Origin: an uncultured Acidimicrobiia bacterium
GTDB taxonomy: Bacteria > Actinomycetota > Acidimicrobiia > Spongiisociales > Spongiisociaceae
DNA: 64,000 bases
Assembly (NCBI GenBank): GCA_958295745.1
Contig: OY282370.1
Location: 2,826,548-2,890,547 of the forward strand
Direction of reading: 5' to 3'
Below, one piece after another: positions 55,247 to 64,000 of this stretch. The first letter of the stretch is position 1. Every line of letters starts with the position of its first letter. Below the pieces are notes generated by a model. That model ran no database searches. It was not told the DNA's origin and saw only the letters and a program-made list of their open reading frames with translations. A program made the position numbers and the translations under genes.

Positions 55247-56422
55247 ATGATCGAGGTGTATCTCGATTACAACGGGTCGGGACCGCTTGATCCGCGGGTG
55301 CTCGAGGAGATGATGCCGGTTCTCTCGGGGGGAGTGGGGAACGCTTCTTCGGTGCATAGGTTCGGTCGGCGTCAGGCGGCCACTGTAGACGCGGCGCGTG
55401 AGCAGGTTGCAGCACTGGTAGGAGGCCGGACCGGGAACACGATCTTCACCGCCGGCGCCACCGAAGCGAACAATCTGGCCTTGCGCGGAGCGGTCGAGGC
55501 CGGAGATGAAAGCCGTCCGCGGGTGCTCGTATCAGCAGTTGAACATGCCTCGGTCCGCCAAACCGCTAGGTGGTTGGGATCCCAGGGCTTGGCGAAGGTG
55601 GAGGTCATCCCGGTGACCGGCGGTGGCTTCGTCGATCCGGCCGTCCTGGAAGCGATGATGGGGCCCGACGTGTTGCTGGTCTCGGTGATGGCGGCGAACA
55701 GCGAGACCGGAGTACTGAATCCGGTGGCCGAGATCGCAGATCAGGTGCATGCCTACGATGCCTTGTTTCATTGCGATGCCACGCAGATGGCGGGTCGGAT
55801 GGCATTCGACATCGACCGAACCGGGGCGGATCTGGTGTCCTTGAGCGGCCACAAGATCTGTGGGCCGGGTGGGGTGGGTGCCCTGGTAGGAACCCGTCAC
55901 GGCCTGCGCCGAGTTCAACCGATCATCCATGGAGGCGGCCACGAACGGGGGTTGCGGTCGGGTTCGGTCAACGTGCCCGGCGCGGTGGGGTTCGGAGCCG
56001 CGGCTCGCATCGCGGTAGAGGAACGAGAGGTCGAATCGGCCCGGGTCGCTGGTCTTCGTGACAAGCTCGTAGCGGAGCTCAAGGCGGGGGTCCAGGAGGT
56101 ACATGAGAACGGGGACGTATCCCGTCGGCTTCCGAACACGGCGAATATCCACTTCGCGGGGGGGGACGCCGAGGCGGTCGCTGCGAACATGGACTCGGTG
56201 GCGGTATCGACCGGCAGCGCCTGCAGTTCGGGATCGATCGAACCGTCCGAGGTGTTGCTGGCCATGGGATGCACCCGCACTGTTGCGTTCGAATCGGTCA
56301 GGTTCAGTCTCGGCCGGTTCACGACCCCGGGGGACATCGAGGTAGCTGTGGAGCGTTGTGTCTCAGCCGTCGGATATGTTAGAGATATGACTGAAGAAGG
56401 ACTATCACGTGCGGTTGGTTGA
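55247..56422 (+). CDS. sspA: Cysteine desulfurase, SspA/DndA-like
   Basis: A 391-aa PLP enzyme that takes sulfur from cysteine. It begins VYLDYNGSGPLDPRVLEEM, has the PLP lysine Lys203 in LSGHKICGPGGVG and the persulfide Cys326 in STGSACSSGS, in the short-loop form followed by EPSEVLLAMG. Class-V desulfurases of this kind serve Fe-S assembly, tRNA thiolation or DNA phosphorothioation. Its gene overlaps the DUF4007 gene by 14 nt and is the first of five tightly packed genes, so a sulfur-donor role in DNA phosphorothioation (SspA) is inferred from context. No strong ribosome binding site precedes the ATG. Confidence 0.85.
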   Translation: MIEVYLDYNGSGPLDPRVLEEMMPVLSGGVGNASSVHRFGRRQAATVDAAREQVAALVGGRTGNTIFTAGATEANNLALRGAVEAGDESRPRVLVSAVEHASVRQTARWLGSQGLAKVEVIPVTGGGFVDPAVLEAMMGPDVLLVSVMAANSETGVLNPVAEIADQVHAYDALFHCDATQMAGRMAFDIDRTGADLVSLSGHKICGPGGVGALVGTRHGLRRVQPIIHGGGHERGLRSGSVNVPGAVGFGAAARIAVEEREVESARVAGLRDKLVAELKAGVQEVHENGDVSRRLPNTANIHFAGGDAEAVAANMDSVAVSTGSACSSGSIEPSEVLLAMGCTRTVAFESVRFSLGRFTTPGDIEVAVERCVSAVGYVRDMTEEGLSRAVG

Positions 56423-57473
56423 CGCGGCACTGCCGGTGTTCGCTCGCCATGAGACGTTCCATCCCAGGTATGGCTGGTTCCGCAAGGCGTACTCGGTAGT
56501 GGCTAGGGATCCCCAGGTCTTCAACCGAAAGGACGCGCCGGTTGTGATCGGGGTGGGTAAAAACATGGCACGGGCTATCCGTTTCTGGGGGTTGGCGGCG
56601 AAGCTGCTGGTGGAGGACCCGAAACCGAAGAACCGGCGTTCGCCCGGGTTGGTACCGACCCGTATGGGCCAAGCCATTTTCGGGGAGTGGGGGTGGGACA
56701 AATATATGGAGGATCCCGGCACGCTGTGGTTACTGCACTGGTTGCTCCTGGCACCGCCCTCGCGCCTGCCGGTTTGGTGGTTGGCGTTCAACGAGTTCAA
56801 CGCGGTGGAGTTCAGCGACAGCGACATCGACATGGTTGTCGCCGTTCAACTGGAATCCGTAGCGGAGTGGGCCCGCCCGCATCCGTCGTCCCGCAAGAAG
56901 GATGTGAGAGCGTTGCTGCGGACCTATGCGCCCGCGGTGCGGTCACGCCGCACCAGTATCGACGACATTCTGGACTGCCCGCTTCGTGAGCTGGGCTTGA
57001 TAGGCCGCTCATCAGCCACCGGGCAATATCGTTTCACCCTCGGTCCCAAACCAACTCTTCCCTCGGAGATTGTCACATACGCGGCCCTCGACTACATCGC
57101 CCGTACCGGTGTCAGCGGTAACACGGTCACGTTCAGTCGGTTGGCGTATGAGCCCGGTGCCCCCGGACGAGCCTTCAAGCTTACCGAGGCCGAACTCATT
57201 GCAGCATTGGCACCGACGCTTCAACGAATCGCCACGCTGGATCTCGTGATCCCGACCGGCGCATCGCAGCTGTCCTGGTCGGGCGATCCTGCGGTGATCG
57301 CCGTTGATGTGCTCAACGGGTATTACAGCGCTAACCCTCCCGACGTTCGGGTTGGTCACTACGGCGACTTGCCGATCAACGATGACCTGGTAGAGGATTT
57401 GGGCCTGGGTCGTAACCCGAGTGAGATGATGCGTCGTCTCTATGAGGCCATCCCGTCTGTAGGCGGTCCATAA
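56409..57473 (+). CDS. sspB: DUF4007 protein, SspB-like component of DNA phosphorothioation
   Basis: A 354-aa protein starting at GTG within the desulfurase gene. It has the DUF4007 opening FARHETFHPRYGWFRKAY, then DPQVFNRKDAPVVIGVGKNMARAIRFWG and GEWGWDKYMEDPGTLWLLHWLLL, shown here as KNMARAIRFWGLAAKLL and DPGTLWLLHW. DUF4007 proteins are found with phosphorothioation genes and, as I recall, SspB is described as the DNA-nicking component of the single-strand Ssp system. The end overlaps the ATPase start codon by one base. Function is assigned from family and order, without a structure check. Confidence 0.82.
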   Translation: MRLVDAALPVFARHETFHPRYGWFRKAYSVVARDPQVFNRKDAPVVIGVGKNMARAIRFWGLAAKLLVEDPKPKNRRSPGLVPTRMGQAIFGEWGWDKYMEDPGTLWLLHWLLLAPPSRLPVWWLAFNEFNAVEFSDSDIDMVVAVQLESVAEWARPHPSSRKKDVRALLRTYAPAVRSRRTSIDDILDCPLRELGLIGRSSATGQYRFTLGPKPTLPSEIVTYAALDYIARTGVSGNTVTFSRLAYEPGAPGRAFKLTEAELIAALAPTLQRIATLDLVIPTGASQLSWSGDPAVIAVDVLNGYYSANPPDVRVGHYGDLPINDDLVEDLGLGRNPSEMMRRLYEAIPSVGGP

Positions 57474-63955: not shown

Positions 63956-63969
63956 TAAGGAGGCAATAG

Positions 63970-64000
63970 ATGCCAGTCAACAACCTAAAGGTAATACAGA
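63970..64000 (+). CDS. Start of a further gene in the defence operon, cut by the window end
   Basis: Only MPVNNLKVIQ is visible. An AAGGAGG ribosome binding site lies at 63958-63964, 5 nt before the ATG, and the gene begins 14 nt after the PLD-helicase stop in the same direction. It almost certainly belongs to the same operon and may be a second effector component. The family cannot be told from ten residues. Confidence 0.6.
   Translation, partial: MPVNNLKVIQ

Follow-up and report, generated by a model that had tools for sequence, protein, structure and literature searches.

The analyzed window, a stretch of 64,000 nucleotides (G000:C1:2826548-2890547), ends within an eight-gene operon on the + strand, sspABCD-pbeABCD, which probably encodes a phosphorothioate-based antiphage system in which SspABCD marks the DNA and PbeABCD executes, the two having been brought together by module swapping. 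The argument is built on gene content, gene order, motifs, the recurrence of the pairing, a separate Pbe clade, and an assembly from two origins. Both modules are known, and among the sulfur-tagging machineries PbeABCD appears to have been known until now only beside Dnd. The coupling, the Ssp-linked Pbe clade, and the PbeC tail appear to be undescribed, with priority not certain. A literature search, covering the main text of open-access journal articles, found no description of PbeABCD with SspABCD, SspBCD, or SspB; the nearest prior work is a genome-level count of strains that carry pbeA-D along with phosphorothioate (PT) genes of either type (PMC7464106).

Operon organization

A preliminary description of the window had placed five genes at its end, overlapping by 1 to 14 nt. 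The five ORFs were confirmed there on the + strand, and neighboring ones overlap by 14, 1, 11, and 13 nt at the sspA/sspB, sspB/sspC, sspC/sspD, and sspD/pbeA boundaries, respectively. The gene said to start at the window edge is real as well: pbeB begins with an ATG at 63970 following AAGGAGG, the window ends 31 nt into this sixth gene, and its 73-aa ORF runs to 64191. The contig continues beyond position 64000, and the extension that had been proposed there identified the remaining genes as pbeB, pbeC, and pbeD, with gaps of 14, 23, and 15 nt (pbeA-pbeB, pbeB-pbeC, and pbeC-pbeD). As the order pbeA-B-C-D is the one published by Xiong et al. (PMC6459918), the operon is read as sspABCD-pbeABCD. 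That it is a degenerate or silent remnant is very improbable: all eight frames are open, the active sites are conserved, and the spacing is tight, even though pbe genes of such low GC content in a high-GC genome could be recent arrivals with poor expression.

Just past the window, a Type II-like DNA methyltransferase gene (L001 12375-14300, - strand) converges with pbeD in a 4-nt overlap. It was set aside as a ninth operon member because of its convergent orientation and because the gene at that position varies among relatives. Two small genes of the window, at 52090-52374 and 52374-52835, overlap by 1 nt and have no Pfam or PADLOC match; the product of the latter starts like a PIN-type nuclease, and the two might form a toxin-antitoxin pair.

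The Ssp module

Judged by its protein families, the region 55247-61784 holds a complete SspA-SspB-SspC-SspD module. The first gene, sspA (55247-56422, +, 391 aa), encodes a cysteine desulfurase (PADLOC SspA 5e-125, Pfam Aminotran_5) with IscS, DndA (3vax), and SspA (6m4j) as relatives of solved structure; the two residues pointed out earlier, Lys203 (SGHK, for PLP) and Cys326 (SACSSG), are intact in the translation. The product of sspB (56409-57473, +, 354 aa) is a DUF4007 protein, the DNA-binding/nicking subunit (Pfam DUF4007 4e-80, PADLOC SspB 5e-99), and has one real PDB match, the solved SspB 6juf (2e-63 over residues 2-307). The P-loop ATPase encoded by sspC (57473-60943, +, 1156 aa) matches the PADLOC SspC model with E=0 and 1012 bits over 16-1105, and sspD (60933-61784, +, 283 aa) encodes a PP-loop (PAPS-reductase-like) sulfur transferase (PADLOC SspD 3e-108, 360 bits; Pfam PAPS_reduct) in which SGGKDS and the cysteines C89, C169, C172, C278, and C281 are invariant across eight relatives. 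The Ssp-type assignment proposed from the DNA alone is therefore borne out by PADLOC and Pfam family matches far beyond chance (5e-99 to E=0 in PADLOC), with the DUF4007 gene and the ATPase inside Ssp families. The only PDB match of the SspD profile (60933-61784) is chain C of entry 21fy, named PptA; the entry also lists IscS, and a literature search on it found no paper.

BrxC, DUF4007, and PAPS reductase are common to Ssp and type 4 BREX. With the best PADLOC BrxC model, the sspC product indeed scores 298 bits, and there is a weak match of SspD to BrxP. A BREX locus is nevertheless extremely improbable: the SspC and SspD models reach 1012 and 360 bits, and PglZ, BrxL, and a BrxB-like gene are absent from the eight operon genes and the next gene.

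The Pbe module

The restriction arm, as predicted from the sequences, is PbeABCD, four genes of which three lie wholly or mostly outside the window. The PLD-helicase and the truncated gene behind it, which had been taken as the restriction arm, do begin the effector arm, but the arm has four genes. The first, pbeA (61772-63955, +, 727 aa), encodes a fusion of a PLD/HKD nuclease domain and an SF2 helicase (PADLOC PbeA 1e-192), with the conserved motifs HPKVWLF...GSSNMT (HKD nuclease), ATGSGKT (Walker A), ADEAH (DEAH), and QRRGRLLR (motif VI). It scores 366.7 bits against a cut-off of 600 bits for the Dnd-linked restriction enzyme of NCBIfam, so that NCBI annotation would likely miss the name. 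Annotated phage records are without a close copy, the best match having 29% identity over most of the protein. Elsewhere in the same genome, part of a 1065-aa frame (G000:C1:867228-868484) matches PbeA positions 2-393 with 206 bits and represents another PLD-helicase-like protein.

The second gene (63970-64191, L001 9518-9739, with 63970-64000 in the window; +) is an ORF with a Shine-Dalgarno sequence, whose 73-aa product is a putative PbeB by place and size. Its family is conserved in Ssp-linked loci, and the structure model consists of three helices (pLDDT 78), for which Foldseek gave no match. Past the window follow pbeC (64215-66338, L001 9763-11886, +, 707 aa), encoding a CxC-hook ABC ATPase (PADLOC PbeC 5e-49) with the hook FCICGE and the C-terminal tail CGCNHRQECEIC, and pbeD (66354-66830, L001 11902-12378, +), encoding a DndE-like protein of 158 aa. 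The pbeD product has zero matches in the family libraries. An hhalign comparison relates its family to Dnd-linked PbeD (TIGR04062, DNA phosphorothioation-associated protein 4) with a probability of 91.9 (E 7e-7), and a Foldseek search with the model (pLDDT 90) returned the DndE entries 4lrv, 5wtu, and 7x4e only at a nonsignificant E > 4; PbeD is tied to its family by profile comparison only.

Recurrence of the Ssp-Pbe pairing

Because the helicase half of PbeA resembles common SF2 helicases, the first PbeA profile search matched every genome, and the counts use full-length matches only. An even sample of the phylum contained full-length SspC in 7 genomes, full-length PbeA in 7, and both in 4, in three of which they form one operon; the same gene order occurs in two other Actinomycetota genomes. 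In an even sample of 395 genomes from the window's class, SspD was present in 18, a strong PbeA in 13, and both in 11 (hypergeometric 3e-15, ignoring kinship). SspD and PbeA lie on one strand at most 4 kb apart in 8 of the 18 SspD genomes, and a ninth has them at 8.6 kb.

PbeA from three Ssp-Pbe operons was searched for in 84,980 species genomes, which yielded 80 loci. SspB, C, or D occurs within the 10 kb flank of 58 of them, which is not a rate because the sample favors relatives of the queries; Dnd adjoins 4, and 18 have neither, several of these at contig ends. The Ssp-linked PbeA loci are spread over at least 15 phyla, including Pseudomonadota, Poribacteria, Actinomycetota, Planctomycetota, Chloroflexota, and Bacillota. 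The genes sspD and pbeA share a strand and are no more than 300 nt apart, often overlapping, in 25 loci. Three arrangements are seen repeatedly: sspBCD-pbeABCD in line, pbeABCD facing sspDCB, and pbeABCD-sspA(reverse)-sspBCD. A Sphingomonadaceae plasmid (CP099618) carries a complete sspABCD-pbeABCD copy that is annotated gene by gene.

Several neighborhoods hold further components. Next to Ssp-Pbe stand an SspE (L063 5743-8052), a DndB-like protein (L069 15070-16326), GmrSD_N and SIR2 proteins (L089 14895-16831), or a HATPase protein (L078 15085-17457). In one Ssp-Pbe subclade, pbeA directly follows the gene of a large protein that contains a sigma-70 region 4 domain (L108 7761-10019 and 16 related genes), and 'sigma factor-like' proteins also adjoin Dnd- and methylase-linked pbeA (L139 5951-9004, L142 13678-14991). 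Near the window's module in sequence (SspD 87%), the SspABCD of G264 (L044 8269-18840) is followed by genes for a 416-aa SF2 helicase, a 631-aa MzaB-like protein, and a 282-aa DrmC-like PLD protein, which are candidates for a different, split effector arm.

A separate Ssp-linked clade

A tree of PbeA was built with 90 rows; its long branches make the outer part unsure. Of the 57 Ssp-linked rows, 56 belong to a clade of 68 rows with an SH-aLRT of 100 and a long stem. The remaining one comes from a Rhizobium indigoferae plasmid (L144), where a Pbe module of the other kind lies beside sspABCD, a second, independent Ssp-Pbe pairing. Conversely, L096 falls inside the Ssp-linked clade yet adjoins DndC. 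Three partner changes suffice among the labeled rows, with swaps in both directions. Pbe modules of the Ssp-linked clade also occur without Ssp within 10 kb (L064 and L083). PbeABCD of this clade likewise stands without Ssp at L105 (1-10019), L113 (1437-9977), L103, and L107: a sigma-like gene alone precedes pbeA at the last two, and at L105 and L113 the pbe genes are preceded by a PP-loop (PAPS-reductase-like) protein that carries CDC at its C-terminus, a cysteine desulfurase, and PADLOC PDC-M33A/B-like proteins; this set may be a further phosphorothioation cassette.

The clade is also set apart by an extra C-terminal tail of PbeC. The pattern C.C..C..C (CxC...CxxC) occurs in 62 of 64 clade members versus 0 of 21 other PbeCs; the two exceptions are L104, a short ORF of 616 aa, and the Dnd-linked L096, which has a different C-terminus. 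The four cysteines may form a zinc site. A bolder reading, which we regard as possible rather than probable, takes the Ssp-linked clade to be a dedicated reader of single-strand (asymmetric) PT that uses its own PbeC cysteine tail and works by a mechanism distinct from that of Dnd-linked Pbe, with PbeABCD in general serving as a plug-in effector for at least four kinds of mark, namely Dnd, Ssp, base methylation, and a PDC-M33-like cassette, so far undescribed, that includes a cysteine desulfurase and a PP-loop protein.

Origin of the two modules

At the 13-nt overlap of sspD and pbeA (61772-61784, +), which forms the seam of the two modules, the GC content drops from 61% to 45%; the ssp genes have a GC content of 61-64% and a GC3 of 0.69-0.78, versus 40-48% and 0.33-0.47 in the pbe genes. 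The nearest Ssp relatives are found in the bacterium's own class and family (SspC 69%), those of Pbe in Poribacteria and Nitrospinota (PbeA 60-61%), whereas the class's own Ssp-linked Pbe is about 37% identical. Across loci, similarity to the window in Ssp and in Pbe is correlated at rho -0.29, and inheritance of the window's Ssp and Pbe as a single unit was dropped for this reason. Among 39 complete loci, distance correlations amount to 0.64-0.86 within a module versus rho 0.31-0.52 between Ssp and Pbe, a moderate value from which it follows that the pairing is loose. Most linked loci are without the GC3 step (median difference -0.03), and the window's join therefore looks recent.

The locus lies between pyrG and xerD, and xerD directly follows pyrG in the family members L184, L185, L186, and L188. 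In the same interval, G726 (L178 2644-11997) has SspABCD without Pbe, together with ParB_N, HTH_ParB, and beta-lactamase-fold genes on the opposite strand. Given the GC seam, the different nearest kin, and the Pbe-less SspABCD at this spot, Pbe most likely joined a resident or incoming Ssp set through module exchange.

The compositional and phylogenetic differences between the modules and the Pbe-less SspABCD of G726 are also compatible with SspABCD and PbeABCD being independent neighbors in a defense island, Ssp as an orphan or with a distant effector and Pbe alone or with another mark, and PbeABCD does adjoin Dnd or base methylases elsewhere (PMC6459918). Such an accidental neighborhood is nevertheless distinctly unlikely, as it accords poorly with a coding overlap of 13 nt at the seam, with the recurrence of the pairing across at least 15 phyla and within one PbeA clade, and with a co-divergence of Ssp and Pbe that is positive, if moderate. 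There is also no adjoining SspE, and the four GmrSD_N proteins of the genome (G000:C1 387217, 1481450, 1756966, and 2292647) match HEC-06, HEC-05, HEC-05, and NsnA, respectively, better than SspE in PADLOC.

Proposed mechanism

The chemistry, the PT dependence, and the replication block of the coupled system are extrapolated from published Ssp and Pbe work. SspABCD makes single-strand PT (PMC8092258): SspA and SspD mobilize sulfur, SspB nicks, SspC hydrolyzes ATP, and the mark goes onto one strand (PMC8092258; PMC9239217; PMC7464106). PbeABCD with DndCDEA reduces plaquing about 10^4-fold and halts viral DNA replication; this Dnd-paired Pbe requires host PT, reaches its full effect only with all four genes, and is non-toxic in PT-less cells (PMC6459918).

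By analogy, SspA would draw sulfur from cysteine, SspD would activate a DNA phosphate and then insert the sulfur, and SspB and SspC would locate and nick the site, leading to single-strand PT on the host DNA; in the Ssp members studied elsewhere the mark is 5'-CpsCA-3'. PbeC, the CxC-hook ABC ATPase, and the DndE-like PbeD would scan DNA for the presence or absence of the mark, and the nuclease-helicase PbeA with PbeB would block the replication of unmarked or under-marked invading DNA; the Pbe arm should act on DNA without the Ssp mark. That PbeC and PbeD would read the mark is a first guess prompted by their resemblance to DndD and DndE. It is disputed whether PbeA cuts DNA (PMC10853773); the copy in the window has an intact nuclease motif.

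Alternatively, PbeABCD could be a second layer of DNA scanning or modification instead of a killing arm, in which PbeC and PbeD add site choice and PbeA is a backup or acts in suicide upon failure. In favor of this, PbeC and PbeD are related to DndD and Dnd-linked PbeD, and both scanning and suicide have been put forward as models of the CxC system (Rakesh et al., PMC10853773). We nevertheless consider it unlikely in view of PbeA, whose HKD, Walker A, DEAH, and motif VI residues are intact and conserved, and of the Dnd-paired homolog, which needs all four pbe genes for full immunity and does not harm a PT-less host (PMC6459918).

Relation to known systems

DndCDEA-PbeABCD of Haloterrigena jeotgali A29 has the same pbeA-B-C-D order beside a phosphorothioation module (PMC6459918), but the window's modification module is SspABCD, not DndCDE, and its Pbe differs from Dnd-linked Pbe in the separate clade, the four-Cys PbeC tail, and a score below the NCBIfam cut-off. 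Rakesh et al. reinterpret Pbe as an HKD-helicase, a small protein, a CxC ABC ATPase, and a DndE cognate, that is, as a CxC ABC-ATPase/DndE system (PMC10853773). The sspABCD genes, with SspB and SspA homologs of solved structure, are shared with SspABCD-SspE (Vibrio cyclitrophicus FF75 and E. coli 3234/A), but an sspE (GmrSD_N and GmrSD_C) beside sspABCD was not found in the window's operon; relatives such as L063 add SspE to Pbe. SspABCD-SspFGH (Vibrio anguillarum FF-93; PMC8092258) likewise joins sspBCD to a multigene effector. SspFGH has a Walker A protein and the FtsK/SpoIIIE-like SspH (PMC8092258), whereas the window has a PLD-helicase, a small protein, an ABC ATPase, and a DndE-like protein, and none of sspF, sspG, and sspH is among the genes after sspD (pbeABCD and the convergent methyltransferase). 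PT-based self/non-self logic is common to Dnd-DndFGH, but the window's operon is without DndC/D/E or DndFGH genes, and DndB has no match in the genome. The preliminary description was thus correct in suspecting an arm unlike both described Ssp arms; what it took for a possibly novel fusion is the PbeA of the known PbeABCD, and the unusual feature is the Ssp-Pbe pairing and its separate Pbe clade, not the PLD-helicase fusion.

Implications

In a survey of 2,678 sspBCD loci, more than 80% lacked both sspE and sspFGH, and its authors asked whether there are other partners (PMC8092258). With PbeA at most 4 kb away in 8 of the 18 SspD-bearing genomes of the sampled class, this locus and its relatives name one missing Ssp partner. 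As Ssp marks one strand only, the pairing makes a double-strand-mark requirement of Pbe directly testable, and the natural module swap, with its GC seam, different kin, and coding overlap, can be used to map the mark-reading part. The pairing of Ssp and Pbe may thus explain part of the Ssp systems without a known effector arm.
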